DNA of 64,000 bases from Alloprevotella sp. OH1205_COT-284 (GTDB lineage Bacteria > Bacteroidota > Bacteroidia > Bacteroidales > Bacteroidaceae): positions 1 through 64,000 of the forward strand of contig NZ_RQYI01000007.1 in NCBI RefSeq assembly GCF_003859795.1, given 5' to 3'. The first letter of the stretch is position 1. The number at the start of each line of letters is the position of its first letter. The notes under the pieces are model-generated. The model was not told where the DNA came from, searched no databases, and saw only the letters and a list, made by a program, of their open reading frames with translations. Made by a program: the position numbers and the translations under genes. This document shows positions 30,304 through 59,107 of this stretch, piece after piece.

Positions 30304-32766
30304 TCAGATGAAGAGGTTCAGACCGGCTTGTTCGGCGCGTTCCATGTAGGTCGCCACGCCGCCGATGCCGACGCCGTCGAGCAGTTCTTCCGAAGAAATG
30401 CCCATCATGTCCATCGACATCTGGCAGGCAATAAACTCCACGCCGTTGTCCAGAGCCTGTTGGCGCAACTCCTCCAACTGGCTGACGCCTTTGCGCCTCA
30501 TGATGTGGCGCATGAGGCGGTCGCCGATGCCGAGCATACTCATTTTCGACATGTGCAGGCTGCGCGAGTCGGCCGGCAGCATCCACGAGAACATCTTGCC
30601 GAAGATGTCTTTTTCCACGATGGGCTTGTTTTCTTTCTTGATGACGTTCAAGCCCCAAAAAGTAAAGAAAATTGATACGGGAGTGCCGGTTGCGGCTGCG
30701 CCGTTGGCCAACACAAAAGTGGCCAGAGCCTTGTCGAGATCATCGGAAAACATGATGAACGTTTTTCCCTTTCCGCGTGTCGGTTCTCCGATGATGCAAC
30801 TCGTGGATGGGCGTTTTTCGATCTCTACGATAAACGTACCCTTTTCTTCTCGTCGTCCGATGAGTTCGTGCCCCGTGCTCTTGCACCACGCCCGGGCATC
30901 TCGTGCAAAGCCGGGGTCGGTGGCGTGTACTTCGAGGTGTGCGCCCACGGGGGCATTGTCTACGGCTTTTTTCAACTGCAAGATCGGGCCGGGGCATTGC
31001 AAACCGCAGGCATCGACCTTGATGACTTCGGCGGCCGGTGCGCCGCAGGGCTTGCACGGTGCGCAAATGGCAGAGGCGCAGGCGTCGGCACACAGTTCCG
31101 AAACGTGCTTGGTGACCGTGGAATAGAGCTTGTAGCCACCCGAAAGGTTGCGTACGTCCGAGAAGCCGCGCGAAAGGAGAATGCGCTGGGCGAGATAGCC
31201 GCGCAAACCTATGGCGCAGAAAATGATGATGCGCTTGTCGCGCGGAACTTCGTCGAGGCGGTCGCGCAAATCGTCGAGCGGTATGTTTGTCGCCCCTTCG
31301 ATAGTGCCGAGGGCAAACTCTTCGGCGGTGCGCACGTCGAGCAGCAGGGTGTCTTTGCGTGCTTCGGGAGTTTGTCGGGCAAGGGCTTGCAGCTCGTGCC
31401 AATAGACCACGGGCATTTTGCCGTTGAGAATGTTCATACCCGTATAGGCTGCAATGGCCACGGGGTCTTTGGCCGAGGAGAAGGGCGGGGCATAGCAGTG
31501 TTCCGTTTCGAGGAGGTCGTGCAAAGTGCCTTTTCGCTTGATGATTTGTGCGATTTGGTCGATGCGCTTGTCCACGCCGTCAGTTCCCACGCATTGTGCG
31601 CCGTAGATGCGTCCGTCGGTGGGCGAGAACGTGAGTTTCAGCGTGAGCGGACAAGCTCCGGGGTAGTATCCGGCGTGCGATCCCGATTGCGTGGTGCTGC
31701 TCAGGTAGTCGATGCCTTCGCGCTTCAAGGCTTTGGCCGGCAGGCCGGTGGCTGCCACGGTGATGTCAAAGATCTTGGCAATGGCCGTTCCGATGGAGCC
31801 TTCGTAGGTGAGGTGATTGCCTTGCACCATGTTGTCGGCCACGATGCGGCCTTGTCGGTTGGCCGGGCCGGCGAGGAAGTTGAGCCACGGCTTTCCGGTG
31901 ACGGGGTGGGTGAACTCGATCGCGTCGCCCACGGCATACACGTCCTTGGCCGAGGTTTCGAGATATTCATTGACTTTGATGCCTCGTTCGCCGAGAGCAA
32001 TGCCGGCCATTTGTGCCAATTCCGTGGACGGCCGCACGCCGATGGAGAGCAATACGAGGTCGGCCGCGATGCAACGTCCGTCGCCGAGGCAAACCGAAAG
32101 GCGGTCGCCGTTTTGCTCGAAACGCTCGACGGCGGTTTCGAGATGAAGATTTACGCCGCGCTCCGCCAAATGCTGGTGTGCATAAGAGGCGATGGAGAAA
32201 TCGACAGGTGCCAACACCTGATTGCCCATTTCCACAAGGCTCACTTCGATACCTGCCGCGTGGAGATTTTCGGCCATTTCAAGACCGATAAATCCGCCGC
32301 CCACCACCACGGCCTGTTTCACTCCGCCACGGTCGATGTATTGTTTGATGCGGTCAGTGTCGTCGACGTTGCGCAGTGTGAAGATGCCGGGCAGGTCGAT
32401 GCCGGGCAGGGGCGGGCGAACGGGCACTGCACCGGGCGAAAGCAGGAGCTTGTCGTAGCTTTCGGTGTATTGGCTGCCGTCGGCACGGCGAACGGTCACT
32501 TGTTTTTGTGCGGTGTCGATGGCCACGGCCTCGTTTTCGGGGCGCACGTCGATGGCAAACCGTCTGCCGAAACTTTCGGGTGTTTGGAGAAAGAGCTTGT
32601 CGCGTTCGGCAATGGTGCCGCCGATGTAGTAGGGCAGTCCGCAGTTGGCATAGGAAATATATTTTCCTTTTTCGAGCAATATGATGTCGGCAAATTCGTC
32701 CGAACGGCGTATTCTTGCGGCGGCGGTGGCTCCTCCGGCCACGCCTCCGATGATGATGTGTTTCAA
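30304..32766 (-). CDS. Multidomain CoA-disulfide-reductase-like protein: FAD/NAD(P) oxidoreductase, rhodanese, TusA and DsrE domains
   Basis: 820 residues. About 1-450: pyridine nucleotide-disulfide oxidoreductase (HIIIGGVAGGATAAARIRR; redox Cys42 in YANCGLPYYIGG; VVVGGGFIGLEMAENL; DVYAVGDAIEF). About 460-555: rhodanese domain with FCAIGLRGYLAQ holding the sulfur-accepting Cys. About 590-660: TusA-like VDACGLQCPGPILQLKKAVD. About 680-820: DsrE-like domain including MSMDMMGISSEELLDG. All parts act on persulfide sulfur or CoA disulfides, so the chain probably reduces CoA-per/disulfides and passes sulfane sulfur between domains in the cytoplasm. Single gene. Confidence 0.88.
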   Translation of the reverse strand: MKHIIIGGVAGGATAAARIRRSDEFADIILLEKGKYISYANCGLPYYIGGTIAERDKLFLQTPESFGRRFAIDVRPENEAVAIDTAQKQVTVRRADGSQYTESYDKLLLSPGAVPVRPPLPGIDLPGIFTLRNVDDTDRIKQYIDRGGVKQAVVVGGGFIGLEMAENLHAAGIEVSLVEMGNQVLAPVDFSIASYAHQHLAERGVNLHLETAVERFEQNGDRLSVCLGDGRCIAADLVLLSIGVRPSTELAQMAGIALGERGIKVNEYLETSAKDVYAVGDAIEFTHPVTGKPWLNFLAGPANRQGRIVADNMVQGNHLTYEGSIGTAIAKIFDITVAATGLPAKALKREGIDYLSSTTQSGSHAGYYPGACPLTLKLTFSPTDGRIYGAQCVGTDGVDKRIDQIAQIIKRKGTLHDLLETEHCYAPPFSSAKDPVAIAAYTGMNILNGKMPVVYWHELQALARQTPEARKDTLLLDVRTAEEFALGTIEGATNIPLDDLRDRLDEVPRDKRIIIFCAIGLRGYLAQRILLSRGFSDVRNLSGGYKLYSTVTKHVSELCADACASAICAPCKPCGAPAAEVIKVDACGLQCPGPILQLKKAVDNAPVGAHLEVHATDPGFARDARAWCKSTGHELIGRREEKGTFIVEIEKRPSTSCIIGEPTRGKGKTFIMFSDDLDKALATFVLANGAAATGTPVSIFFTFWGLNVIKKENKPIVEKDIFGKMFSWMLPADSRSLHMSKMSMLGIGDRLMRHIMRRKGVSQLEELRQQALDNGVEFIACQMSMDMMGISSEELLDGVGIGGVATYMERAEQAGLNLFI

Positions 32767-33064: not shown

Positions 33065-33099
33065 GCATGCAGTCATTGGGATATGGTCGTATCTATATT
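33065..33099 (+). promoter_or_regulatory. Predicted ECF-type promoter, site 1
   Basis: GCATGCAGTC (33065-33074), 14 bases, GTATCTATATT (33089-33099). The same two boxes with identical spacing occur at 34803-34837. Its end lies 25 bases before the chosen ATG 33124. It does not resemble the housekeeping TTTG/TAnnTTTG promoter, so an alternative sigma factor is implied; the sigma domain encoded just downstream is the natural candidate. Confidence 0.65.
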
Positions 33100-33123: not shown

Positions 33124-34785
33124 ATGGAATTGAAGATAAAAGCATTGGTAGAAAAGGCACAACAAGGCGATGCAGAGGCTTTCGGCATGTTGTATCGGCT
33201 GTTTTACCCGAAGATGAAGGGGATTTGCATAAAAATCTTGAAAGACAACAAGGACGCGGCAGACGATCTTGTTCAAGATGCTTTTATTCTTGCCCTGATG
33301 TCGGTGAAGGACTTGAAAAACACCCGGAGGTTCGGTCAGTGGCTGACCAGCATTACGACCAATCTCGCTCTCAAATATCAGGAAAAATGTCAGAAAGTAC
33401 AATTTGTGTCTTTGTCAAACAGAGAAGAGGACGTAGAAGAAGAGGTTGAGGCGGAATGTGTTTCGGAGCTTTCCCTGTCGTATGAAGAGGTCATGGCCGC
33501 GGTTGAAAAGTTGCCGGAGGGATACGGTAAGGTTTTCAAAATGTCGGTATTGGACGGGCTTTCACATCAAGAAATAGCCCAAATCCTCAATATCGCCCCA
33601 CACAGTTCCTCATCGCAGTTGGCAAGGGCGAGAGGCATGCTCCGAAATATCTTGAACATCAAGGTCTTGTCCGTTCTTGTTTTGGCTTGGGTGGGCGTTT
33701 ATGAATACAAACTCCTCATCAACAAAGAGCAGGTTGCTTCCGAAAGCAACACACGTTTGGCAAGAAAAGACACTGTCAGGAAAGTGGAAAAACACAAGCT
33801 AACTCCCACCGTCGGAGAGCCGCCGGCCGCAGATGTCGCTTCAAGGCATGCCGAAAAAACAGCTGCAAACAGCAGGCCGATCGAACGCAATGCAGGCATC
33901 GCTTCCACTTCTTTTGATGCCATTGCCGACAGCCTTGACATTAAAGTCCGGTTGGCGGAAAACACCACAGACGGCATCTTGTTGCCCGATAGCATTGTCG
34001 CGCCGCACAAAGCATGGGAAAACTTTATTGGCGAAGAAAACGGAAAGAAAAGCAATCGGTGGCAATTTCTTGCTGCCGGATCGCTCGGTACGGCTCTCAT
34101 ACAAAATGCCTATAAGCTCATCGTCAATCAGGGAAGTCTGGTGGCCGATCCGACAACGTCTTATTTTTCCACATGGGAAGAATATGCCAAACATCTCCGT
34201 TATACGGCCACGGAAGACGCGCCCGAAACAATGGCCATGAAGAACATCGCCGACCACAATTCGGGAAAAATCACAGAGACCGAGCATCACCGTAAGCCGA
34301 TGACGATAGGGATTGCCGTAAACAAAGAAATAGGCCGACGTTGGAGTTTCGAAACCGGACTTCGCTACTCGTTCTTGAAATCGAAATTCGTTTTGGGCAC
34401 GGGAGAATATCGTGTTGATAAGCAGCAAAGCCTGCACTATGTCGGCGTCCCCGTTAAGTTGTCATATCGGTTGGCGGGAGATCGGGAAATGTCTGCATAC
34501 GGATCTGCCGGAGTGACCGTCCGCATACCCGTTTCGGGCACAATTTCCGCTGATTACATCACGGGGGGAACTGCCTCTTATTCCGTCCGCCGGAAAATTG
34601 CTCCGCCTTTGCTGTGGACGGTGAACACCAATCTCGGAGTGCAATACCGCTTGACACCCCGATTGAGCTTGTTTGCAGAACCGACACTCAACTGGCATCT
34701 TTCCCATGAGAGCACCACGAAAAACGCTTGGACGGAACGGCCGTTCACCTTCACCCTTCCGGTCGGACTGAGGTTCGGTTGGTGA
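33124..34785 (+). CDS. ECF sigma factor fused to a transmembrane helix and an outer-membrane beta-barrel
   Basis: 553 residues from ATG 33124. This start begins like a normal ECF sigma factor (MELKIKALVEKAQQGDAEAFGMLY) and lies downstream of the promoter element; earlier in-frame starts (33067, 33103) would overlap it. Residues about 8-75 are sigma region 2 (DDLVQDAFILALMSV, WLTSITTNLALKYQEK). About 115-178 are region 4 with its helix-turn-helix (LSHQEIAQILNIAPHSSSSQLARARGMLR). Then, with no intervening anti-sigma domain, comes a membrane helix (about 181-199, VLSVLVLAWVGVYEYKLLI), a hydrophilic linker (about 200-310) and a C-terminal 8-stranded-type barrel (HYVGVPVKLSYRL, LSLFAEPTLNWHL, FTLPVGLRFGW). 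The predicted chain spans cytoplasm, inner membrane, periplasm and outer membrane. The barrel resembles those of dual-membrane-spanning anti-sigma factors (Dma) known from Bacteroides, which are normally separate from the sigma factor. Confidence 0.85.
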   Translation: MELKIKALVEKAQQGDAEAFGMLYRLFYPKMKGICIKILKDNKDAADDLVQDAFILALMSVKDLKNTRRFGQWLTSITTNLALKYQEKCQKVQFVSLSNREEDVEEEVEAECVSELSLSYEEVMAAVEKLPEGYGKVFKMSVLDGLSHQEIAQILNIAPHSSSSQLARARGMLRNILNIKVLSVLVLAWVGVYEYKLLINKEQVASESNTRLARKDTVRKVEKHKLTPTVGEPPAADVASRHAEKTAANSRPIERNAGIASTSFDAIADSLDIKVRLAENTTDGILLPDSIVAPHKAWENFIGEENGKKSNRWQFLAAGSLGTALIQNAYKLIVNQGSLVADPTTSYFSTWEEYAKHLRYTATEDAPETMAMKNIADHNSGKITETEHHRKPMTIGIAVNKEIGRRWSFETGLRYSFLKSKFVLGTGEYRVDKQQSLHYVGVPVKLSYRLAGDREMSAYGSAGVTVRIPVSGTISADYITGGTASYSVRRKIAPPLLWTVNTNLGVQYRLTPRLSLFAEPTLNWHLSHESTTKNAWTERPFTFTLPVGLRFGW

Positions 34786-34802: not shown

Positions 34803-34837
34803 GCATGCAGTCTTTTGATTGGGGCGGTATCTATATT
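34803..34837 (+). promoter_or_regulatory. Predicted ECF-type promoter, site 2
   Basis: GCATGCAGTC (34803-34812), 14 bases, GTATCTATATT (34827-34837), 33 bases before the methyltransferase ATG and 17 bases after the sigma-fusion stop. Same boxes and spacing as site 1. Confidence 0.65.
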
Positions 34838-34869: not shown

Positions 34870-35676
34870 ATGCAAAAAAGACACACGGACAGACAACAAT
34901 ATTTTCGCGATTTGGAAGCGACATCCGATGCATACTATGTCGGCTATGTTTCCGATTACATCAAACTCACTTCAAACACCCGCGTCTTGGAAGTGGGCTG
35001 TGGCGAAGGGGGCAATCTCGCCCCTTTTGCCAGATTGGGCTGTGAGGTCACGGGAATTGACATAGCGGAATGTAGGATAGAAGATGCCCGAAAATACTTC
35101 GCCTCGGTGGGCGGCAATGCCACATTTGTTTGCAGTGATTTTATGAAGTGTGCCACACCGCAGAGCGAGGAAGACAAGTTTGATGTCATCCTCCTGCATG
35201 ATGTGATAGAGCATGTTCCGGTTAAAGACGAGTTTCTCAAACATTTAATCTCTTTTCTCAAAACAGCGGGCATACTGTTTGTCGGTTTTCCGGCATGGCA
35301 GATGCCCTTCGGCGGACATCAGCAGATATGCAGAAGCCCGCTTTGTTCACACTTGCCGTTCATTCATTTGCTCCCCAATCCGCTGTATCTGTCTTTGCTC
35401 AAATTGTGTCGCGAAACGGAGGGCACAATCAAAGAACTGATGAGCATAAAGGCATGCAAAACAAGCATTGAACTTTTTGAAACTTTGGCGAAAGCATGCG
35501 GATATGCCGTCATCAACAAGCAGTATTGGTTGATCAACCCGCACTATAAGCAAAAGTTCAACCTCTCTCCTCGCCTTTTGCCCCGACCGATGTGGAGGTT
35601 GAAGCACATCAGAAACTTTTTCACCACATCGTGTTGGTATGTGCTCGGCAAGCAGGCGGAAGAAACCGAAAAATGA
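34870..35676 (+). CDS. Class I SAM-dependent methyltransferase
   Basis: 268 residues. Motif I VLEVGCGEGGNLAPFARLGCEVTGIDIAE and motif DVILLHDVIEHV mark a class I Rossmann-fold methyltransferase of the UbiE/SAM type (Methyltransf_11/23-like). The C-terminal part is rich in Leu, His and Pro and is not typical of a known substrate class. Substrate unknown. It has its own copy of the ECF-type promoter element, so it is probably the target of the preceding membrane-tethered sigma factor; that suggests a role in an envelope response (for example lipid or quinone methylation), which is inference. Confidence 0.85.
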   Translation: MQKRHTDRQQYFRDLEATSDAYYVGYVSDYIKLTSNTRVLEVGCGEGGNLAPFARLGCEVTGIDIAECRIEDARKYFASVGGNATFVCSDFMKCATPQSEEDKFDVILLHDVIEHVPVKDEFLKHLISFLKTAGILFVGFPAWQMPFGGHQQICRSPLCSHLPFIHLLPNPLYLSLLKLCRETEGTIKELMSIKACKTSIELFETLAKACGYAVINKQYWLINPHYKQKFNLSPRLLPRPMWRLKHIRNFFTTSCWYVLGKQAEETEK

Positions 35677-56854: not shown

Positions 56855-59107
56855 ATGGAAACTTTGTTTCTCGGAATTGTCATTTTTCTCTTCGTTTTGG
56901 CCGCTTTCGACCTCTATGTCGGGGTGAGCAACGACGCCGTGAATTTTCTCAACTCGGCCATCGGCTCGAAGTCGGCCAAGTATCGCACCATTGTTTGGGT
57001 GGCCGCCGTCGGCGTGTTTACCGGTTGCGTGCTTTCCAACGGTATGATGGACATTGCTCGCCACGGTATTTTTCATCCGGGGCAGTTCTCGTTTGAAGAG
57101 GTGATGATCATTTATGTCGCGGTTATGGTGACCGACATCGTCCTGCTCGACATTTTCAACTCCTTTGGCATGCCCACTTCGACCACCGTTTCCATGGTGT
57201 TTGAACTCCTTGGCGCGGCCTTTGCCTTCACCATGATAAAGCTCATGGGCGACGATGCACTCGCCTTTGGCGACTATCTCAACAGCGACAAGGCCATACA
57301 GGTTATTCTCGGCGTGTTTTTGAGCGTTCCGCTCGCCTTTACGTTCGGCGTGGTGGTGCAGTCTTTGGCTCGCGTGATTTTTACGTTCAACTACAAATCC
57401 CGGATGCGCTATTTCATCGGTCTTTTCGGCGGAGTGGCCATCACGAGCATTCTTTATTTCATGCTTTTCAAAGGAATGAAAGACCTCTCCGTCATGACGC
57501 CCGACGTGAAAGCCGCCATGTCTGACCGTCTTGGAGTGATCCTTGTGGGATGTTTTGTGGCTTTCTCGGCGATTTGTCAGCTTTTGCACTGGGTCGGTGT
57601 CAATGTTTTCAAAGTCATTGTTCTGATCGGCACGCTTTCTCTCGCCACTGCTTTTGCCGGCAACGACTTGGTCAATTTCATCGGAGTCCCCCTTGCCGGC
57701 ATGTCGGCTTACCTCGATTTTTCGGCCAATGGAGGTGGCGATTTTTCGGGTTTCATGATGACCGGTTTGAAGGAAAGCGCACAGACGCCTTTCTACTTCC
57801 TCTTTGGTGCGGGTGCTATCATGGTCGTGGCCTTGCTGACCTCCAAAAAAGCGCAGCGCGTCACGAAGACCGAAGTCGGCCTTTCTTCCAAACAAGAGGG
57901 CGAGGAACTCTTCGGGTCGAGTGTGGCGGCACGCAGCATCGTCCGCTTTTCCACGCGTGTCATCGGCAGTGTTTCCGCCGCCACGCCCGAGCCCGTGAAA
58001 CAATGGGTCAATGGCCGTTTCGCCCCCGTGTCCGAAGATCCGCAATATGCCGGCGCGGCCTACGATCTCGTGCGCGCTTCCGTCAATCTCTGCATGGCCT
58101 CGCTGCTCATCGCCTTGGGCACGTCGCTCAAATTGCCCCTTTCCACCACCTTCGTCACCTTCATGGTGGCAATGGGCACGTCTTTGGCCGATCGTGCTTG
58201 GACGCGTGAGAGTGCCGTGTTTCGCATCACGGGAGTGTTGAGTGTCATCGGCGGCTGGTTCATGACGGCCGGTGCGGCTTTCGGAGCCTGTTTTGTCGTG
58301 GCCTGCGCAATGTATTTCGGCGGAATGCCCGTCACTTTCGGTCTGATCCTTCTCGCCCTCGCGTTGGTGGTGCATTCGCAAATCAGATTTGGCAAGAAGC
58401 AAGCCGAAGAGAAGCAGGGCGACACCCTCTTCCAAACCATTATGGCTTGCGACGACCCTGCTGCCGTCAATACTATGCTCAGCAAGCACCTCACGGTGAG
58501 CGTGGCCGAACAGCTCGATTATTTCGGCGGCGCGCTGACCAAATCGACCGACGGCCTCTTTTCCGAAACGCGCCGACAGCTTCGTCGTGTGGAACGCGAT
58601 TTGGAATCAACGAAGCGCGAACTGAAAAACCTGCGCCGTCGCGAAACCCTCTGTTTGCGCCGTGCCGACAATTTCGTCGGAACACGTTTGAGCACTCCCT
58701 TCCACCTTGTCCACAACAATCTCCGACAGATGCTCTCCGGCCTGATGCGTATCAACGATCCCGCCCTCGAACACGTAGAAAACAATTTCGTGCCCGTCGA
58801 AGTCCGCTATGCCGAGCGTTTCTGCGCCATTCGCGACAAGTTTGTGGCCGAAATCTCGGAGATCACCGCCGACATGCGTGCCGATCGCCGTTCCACGATC
58901 AACACCCATAAACAACGCTGCGAGGCGTTGAGAGAGGAGTTTCGCGTTTTCCGCCACGAGGTGCTCGATGCGGTGCAAAACTCCCAAAACGCCGTCAATC
59001 TCACCACCGCCAACCTCTTGCTGCACATCATTCAAGAGAGCGAACAGTTGGTGAAAGAGGTGCGCTCGGCCATCAACAACCTCCGCCGCTACTACGAAGT
59101 GATGTAA
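56855..59107 (+). CDS. PiT-family inorganic phosphate transporter with PhoU-like tail
   Basis: 750 residues. Two PiT repeats with the signatures GVSNDAVNFLNSAIGSKSAKYRT and AGNDLVNFIGVPLAG, plus FGMPTSTTVSMVFELLGA and LGTSLKLPLSTTFVTFMVAMGTSLADRAW. There are about ten membrane helices over residues 1-520. The last ~220 residues form a soluble coiled-coil, PhoU-like region (RRQLRRVERDLESTKRELKNLRRRETLCLRRADNFV), a fusion common in Bacteroidetes and presumed regulatory. Ion-coupled phosphate uptake. Confidence 0.93.
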   Translation: METLFLGIVIFLFVLAAFDLYVGVSNDAVNFLNSAIGSKSAKYRTIVWVAAVGVFTGCVLSNGMMDIARHGIFHPGQFSFEEVMIIYVAVMVTDIVLLDIFNSFGMPTSTTVSMVFELLGAAFAFTMIKLMGDDALAFGDYLNSDKAIQVILGVFLSVPLAFTFGVVVQSLARVIFTFNYKSRMRYFIGLFGGVAITSILYFMLFKGMKDLSVMTPDVKAAMSDRLGVILVGCFVAFSAICQLLHWVGVNVFKVIVLIGTLSLATAFAGNDLVNFIGVPLAGMSAYLDFSANGGGDFSGFMMTGLKESAQTPFYFLFGAGAIMVVALLTSKKAQRVTKTEVGLSSKQEGEELFGSSVAARSIVRFSTRVIGSVSAATPEPVKQWVNGRFAPVSEDPQYAGAAYDLVRASVNLCMASLLIALGTSLKLPLSTTFVTFMVAMGTSLADRAWTRESAVFRITGVLSVIGGWFMTAGAAFGACFVVACAMYFGGMPVTFGLILLALALVVHSQIRFGKKQAEEKQGDTLFQTIMACDDPAAVNTMLSKHLTVSVAEQLDYFGGALTKSTDGLFSETRRQLRRVERDLESTKRELKNLRRRETLCLRRADNFVGTRLSTPFHLVHNNLRQMLSGLMRINDPALEHVENNFVPVEVRYAERFCAIRDKFVAEISEITADMRADRRSTINTHKQRCEALREEFRVFRHEVLDAVQNSQNAVNLTTANLLLHIIQESEQLVKEVRSAINNLRRYYEVM

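Follow-up and report, generated by a model that had tools for sequence, protein, structure and literature searches.

The 64,000-nt stretch of DNA that was analyzed (hereafter, the window) carries at positions 33124 to 34785 of the forward strand a single intact open reading frame for a 553-aa protein in which an ECF sigma factor, a membrane helix, a disordered linker, and an outer-membrane beta-barrel follow one another. This architecture, assigned here to the Dma3 type, is evident from the frame itself, Pfam matches, an AlphaFold2 model, Foldseek searches, and full-length homologs. Sigma region 2 comprises residues 2 to 91 (positions 33127 to 33396, plus strand, like all the following parts) and matches the Pfam family Sigma70_r2 (PF04542) at residues 23 to 85 with an E value of 1.2e-8. 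Sigma region 4 comprises residues 120 to 175 (33481 to 33648), matches Sigma70_r4_2 (PF08281) at residues 121 to 171 with an E value of 1.1e-13, and contains the helix-turn-helix motif HSSSSQLxRA, whose columns (H160 to A169) are invariant in the 54 aligned members of the fusion family. The membrane helix occupies approximately residues 176 to 197 (33649 to 33714) and contains a glycine in the window protein. The original prediction placed its start two to three residues after region 4; the close junction holds, with the distance slightly larger, as the most hydrophobic 17-residue segment begins at residue 176, about 5 residues past the Pfam end of region 4. The predicted disordered periplasmic linker (residues 208 to 307, positions 33745 to 34044) has pLDDT values under 50, and the barrel (residues 313 to 553, positions 34060 to 34782) ends in a tryptophan. 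The Pfam match of the barrel to OMP_b-brl_2 (PF13568; residues 393 to 515, E value of 3.5e-5) is marginal, being slightly below the curated cut-off.

The AlphaFold2 model, calculated from a 54-sequence alignment of homologs, places all these parts in one chain, with the region 2 helices at residues 2 to 91, region 4 from residue 120, disorder at residues 208 to 307, and the barrel at residues 313 to 552; for most of the sigma and barrel parts, pLDDT exceeds 90. Region 4 ends in a helix that runs on without a break as the membrane helix (together residues 159 to 206). In Foldseek searches with this model, the sigma half matched E. coli sigmaE (1or7, E value of 7.7e-8) and the barrel half matched OmpA barrels (e.g., 9fzc, E value of 3.1e-4). 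The sigma part thus has the ECF make-up, consisting of regions 2 and 4 only in the ECF fold (Pfam, Foldseek), and is followed by a single membrane helix and a long disordered tether (hydropathy, model). The full-chain structure prediction that had been proposed as a check therefore returned the sigma factor, the continuous helix, the disorder, and the barrel together, and the predicted uninterrupted frame encoding all of them was confirmed.

The gene downstream of the fusion, and its predicted output, encodes a 268-aa class I SAM-dependent methyltransferase (34870 to 35676, plus strand; Pfam Methyltransf_31/25/23/11). On the other side, a minus-strand frame of 820 aa (30304 to 32766) reads, with domains assigned by eye, like a disulfide oxidoreductase with rhodanese, TusA-like, and DsrE-like parts. 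Both the fusion gene and the methyltransferase gene are preceded by promoter-like elements, supported by a genome scan and by conservation. The element of the fusion gene (33068 to 33097, plus strand) consists of TGCAGTCATT (33068 to 33077) and TATCTATA (33090 to 33097), and that of the next gene (34806 to 34835, plus strand) consists of TGCAGTCTTT (34806 to 34815) and TATCTATA (34828 to 34835). The two are very similar, each having TGCAGTC[A/T]TT and then TATCTATA 15 nt past the final C of TGCAGTC, and they are the only matches in the 2.3-Mb genome at up to 3 mismatches.

Homologs of the fusion protein were collected by scanning one genome per species with an alignment as the query, which yielded 368 relatives, the best 80 of which were kept as named loci; a scan of genome contigs with one sequence gave no match, whereas the alignment-based scan of contigs succeeded. 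End-to-end homologs are present in the same genus as the window, and nearly all of the best 80 of the 368 relatives are single open frames (approximately 78 of the 80 are unbroken across the junction, at 30 to 52% identity). Full-length fusions are found in isolates of Segatella copri, Leyella stercorea, Hallella colorans, and Bacteroides faecis, the last with two copies. The homolog search suggested by the original prediction thus recovered the same fusion many times over, and the alignments describe a broad family whose members come from Prevotella-like species and some species of Bacteroides. Among 81 fusion homologs, the hydrophobic stretch begins 9 to 17 residues past HSSSSQL, within the helix that ends region 4; the membrane helix contains proline in 73 and glycine in 7 more (80 of 81 have either); and the C-terminal residue is Trp in 77 and Phe in 3, a terminal Trp or Phe being suited to a barrel assembled by BAM. 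A tree built from sigma domains, examined for grouping with the Dma-associated ECF21 sigma factors, put the fusions to one side of a branch with a support of 46/99 and the split sigmas in a cluster of their own, the deep branching being unresolved; such support allows a single origin of the fusions but does not prove it.

Several loci depart from this pattern. In an isolate of Alloprevotella oral taxon 473 (L039, 9010 to 9070, minus strand; L130, around 6507), a TGA codon falls precisely at the junction of region 4 with the membrane helix, at a site that is Trp in its relative G041, and the remainder of the barrel frame is intact; the gene may have split naturally, the sigma factor may have been set free, or the stop may be an error. 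The fusion genes of Bacteroides heparinolyticus (L090, around 7107), with a frame break in the barrel, and of L041 (6105), with a frame break past the membrane helix, look like decaying copies. A sigma domain was also seen in a 407-aa frame (L050, 3603 to 4826, minus strand) that adjoins another gene; the long C-terminal extension of this frame is unrelated, and the arrangement may be a sigma fusion of another kind.

The promoter-like elements are conserved along with the fusions. Among the best 80 of the 368 relatives, the fusion gene was preceded by an element with no more than one mismatch to TGCAGTCWTT at 73 of 77 loci, and the adjacent downstream gene at 65 of 78, compared to 47 of 2743 (1.7%) random windows of equal size. 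In most of the 138 elements, the -10 part lies 14 to 16 nt past TGCAGTC; its sequence depends on the clade (TATCTATA or GGACTATATA), and the -35 part hardly varies. The exact bipartite pattern had 25 matches in 15 whole genomes, all of them at fusion loci by their coordinates, and the reversed pattern, used as a control, had none in the same 15 genomes. Taken by itself and with one mismatch allowed, the 10-base core TGCAGTCWTT occurs in the window at chance level and was not used as evidence; a third exact core at position 57357 of the window lacks the -10 part and was not taken as an element. The evidence was accordingly restricted to the bipartite, position-specific element; generic scans for sigma-70 promoters and terminators performed at chance level. 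The natural reading of the paired elements would be that the fused sigma factor drives its own gene and one neighboring operon. The link between the elements and the sigma factor is one of co-occurrence, and the invariance of the recognition-helix motif HSSSSQLxRA would fit an almost invariant -35 part.

The genes that follow the fusion differ between lineages. Among the best 80 of the 368 relatives, the next gene encodes a radical SAM/SPASM protein together with a Gfo/Idh-type oxidoreductase in 33 of 79 loci and the radical SAM protein alone in 5 more; a relative of the window methyltransferase is found on the same strand in 20 of 79 loci and in convergent orientation in 7. Several of the latter loci have elements on both strands, before the methyltransferase gene and before a further gene, and in other loci small lipoprotein-like or other genes take the place of the output gene. 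B. faecis has two fusions, one with each of the main outputs. Judged from these comparisons, the sensor and the promoter persist while the output varies; family and structure searches for the pathway of the output genes returned superfamily names alone. Two fusion systems with the same TGCAGTC -35 part and different outputs were seen in one genome in three cases (L085 and L087 of B. faecis, L053 and L062, and L060 and L063), making cross-talk between them possible. In six loci (L073, L075, L078, L079, L081, and L082), the convergent methyltransferase gene is accompanied by an (F)TEVCVANIDQT-like gene with a TGCAGTC element of its own upstream, whose product is perhaps a lamin-tail-type surface protein.

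Split pairs of separate sigma and Dma genes are plentiful in the relatives. The split Dma proteins have approximately 45 N-terminal residues with the consensus DYSEPxPxxGWExLExEL, followed by a membrane helix without a central proline. When the fusion proteins were compared with 11 split Dma proteins by hhalign (probability of 100, E value of 2.6e-41), the barrel alone aligned; the barrel of the fusion, OmpA-like in fold according to Foldseek, is thus homologous to Dma barrels. The N-terminal modules differ: the fusion has no counterpart of the DYSEPxPxxGWExLExEL module and so lacks the anti-sigma module of the strict Dma proteins (Dma1 and Dma2), and it has, at its N-terminus, the sigma domain that substitutes for a separate cognate sigma factor and that defines the sigma-bearing kind in PMC13088901 (Pfam, Foldseek). 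Because only the barrel aligns and the anti-sigma module is absent, the barrel can be assigned to the Dma kind, with the sigma domain replacing the anti-sigma module, as had been predicted for this locus. Bacteroides sigma open frames of 614 to 661 aa, considered as longer fusions, proved to be ordinary adjacent split sigma/Dma pairs, and a second Dma-like gene was sought in the genome of the window (C8, C16) and not found. In most of the split sigma/Dma pairs of the Bacteroides-type loci L178 to L186 and L188, the sigma gene is preceded by a related element, TGCAGTATT, which suggests that the -35 part could be shared across a wider group.

The accompanying claim that no such fused form had been described is wrong, because Dma3 of Bacteroides thetaiotaomicron, reported in 2026 (PMC13088901; locus bt_2778-2779), bears its cognate sigma domain at its own N-terminus and, for that reason, is not located beside a separate sigma gene. 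The passages on Dma3 in that paper cite Pardue et al. (2024, PNAS). Dma3 is upregulated in dma1 and dma2 mutants, and deletion of dma3 did not reverse their vesicle phenotype (PMC13088901); BT_2778 has been listed elsewhere as a sigma-70 family sigma factor that is mildly iron responsive (PMC10434189). A search for BT_2778 in 120 genomes of the genus of B. faecis gave matches in 4 genomes, none identifiable as BT_2778. The earlier reading was right in outline, with its novelty reduced by Dma3.

The fusion protein probably works as a Dma3-type one-protein trans-envelope switch, a membrane-tethered sigma factor that is released by proteolysis and drives its own gene and the neighboring operon. 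The barrel would reside in the outer membrane, the disordered linker would cross the periplasm, and the single helix would anchor the ECF sigma domain at the inner membrane. Anchoring itself would hold the sigma factor back, an inference drawn because the membrane helix continues the -35-recognizing helix and the protein has no anti-sigma domain. A change at the barrel or in the outer membrane would expose the linker or the membrane helix to a first proteolytic cut, a last cut by the site-2 protease RseP would free the sigma domain, and the freed sigma factor would read TGCAGTC-type promoters, i.e., its own, providing positive feedback, and that of the adjacent operon, represented in the window by the methyltransferase gene. 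The proline or glycine in 80 of 81 membrane helices, unlike the helices of the split Dma proteins, would fit a substrate of a site-2 protease, and an M50 protease is present in the genome of the window; such proteases are near universal, and the conserved proline could have other reasons. IutY, a sigma factor with a fused membrane anchor that is released by Prc and RseP (PMC8999054), may serve as a precedent.

The main rival reading, improbable but deserving consideration, is that the sigma factor works while tethered, like ToxR or CadC, with a signal from the barrel shifting its conformation or distance so that the polymerase is recruited at the membrane without proteolysis. A single chain joining signal and promoter would have no need of a protease, and in the window the fusion gene lies directly beside its promoter and its target, as would suit a membrane-held activator. 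However, in the model the -35-recognition helix runs straight into the membrane helix, so that DNA and polymerase would have little space to bind; the residue that breaks the helix is conserved, the proline leaning towards release over tethered action; and the characterized fused sigma factor, IutY, is released by proteolysis (PMC8999054). Considerably less probable is that the two halves act separately, after a constitutive cut or translation in two pieces, the barrel being only a structural protein or a membrane sink. The in-frame TGA at the exact junction in the one isolate of Alloprevotella oral taxon 473, where the halves may be separate, counts against release from a single chain, and the fusion gene of G059 has a frameshift past the membrane helix; yet the frame is kept across the junction by approximately 78 of the 80 named relatives, despite an identity of 30 to 52%. 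Slightly less probable still is that another sigma factor reads the elements and the fused domain serves as a decoy or acts like an anti-sigma factor on a separate sigma factor. Split sigma genes of Bacteroides do have a related element, TGCAGTATTT, upstream, so that related sigmas may read similar sites, but the only two sites in the genome of the window are both at the fusion locus, a closely related split sigma factor was sought in that genome and not found, and an invariant recognition helix is what would be expected of an active DNA-binding sigma factor. Finally, an assembly or frameshift artifact joining two genes, such as the sequencing error at about 33650 to 33670 named at the outset as a refuting possibility, is already refuted by the comparative data: the genome is in 93 contigs, but relatives in the genus and approximately 80 named loci, including those of the S. 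copri, L. stercorea, H. colorans, and B. faecis isolates, have the same fusion, mostly in single frames, and the sigma-bearing Dma3 has already been published.

The release of a tethered sigma factor, preferred here, opens a broader view, put forward tentatively and at somewhat less than even confidence, of a self-contained envelope switch in which one protein serves as sensor, tether, and sigma factor and is restrained by anchoring alone, in which a fixed promoter code (TGCAGTC plus TATCTATA or GGACTATATA) couples feedback to one operon, and in which the outputs have been exchanged between lineages, the sensor and the promoter being retained. The literature examined gives the sigma-bearing Dma a few sentences and reports no phenotype, promoter, or target for it; as far as that literature shows, the spread across the family, the promoter code, and the local variation in output seem to be new. 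The comparison predicts a promoter sequence and a target gene for each family member, so that the path from an outer-membrane event to a promoter could be tested with one protein and one reporter. The products of the methyltransferase and radical SAM genes, once found, would reveal what these gut bacteria alter in response.

In FecI/FecR/FecA cell-surface signaling, as in the proposed switch, an outer-membrane event controls an ECF sigma factor, but there the task is divided among three proteins and the receptor is a TonB-dependent transporter. IutY of Pseudomonas putida (ECF243) and the actinobacterial ECF48, ECF52, and ECF53 proteins share with the fusion a sigma domain joined to a membrane anchor; unlike it, they include a fused anti-sigma domain and lack an outer-membrane barrel, and IutY receives its signal from a separate TonB-dependent receptor system (PMC8999054). 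The split Dma proteins have a homologous barrel, a membrane helix, and a disordered linker in common with the fusion but combine them with a cytoplasmic anti-sigma module acting on a separate sigma factor, whereas the fusion has the sigma factor in the chain and lacks that module. Dma3 (BT_2778) is the nearest counterpart, likened by description and not by sequence; PMC13088901 gives no promoter, output gene, or phenotype for it. Both are Dma family members with an N-terminal cognate sigma domain and no separate adjoining sigma gene, and the window protein is another member of this known, barely studied, sigma-bearing Dma3 type.
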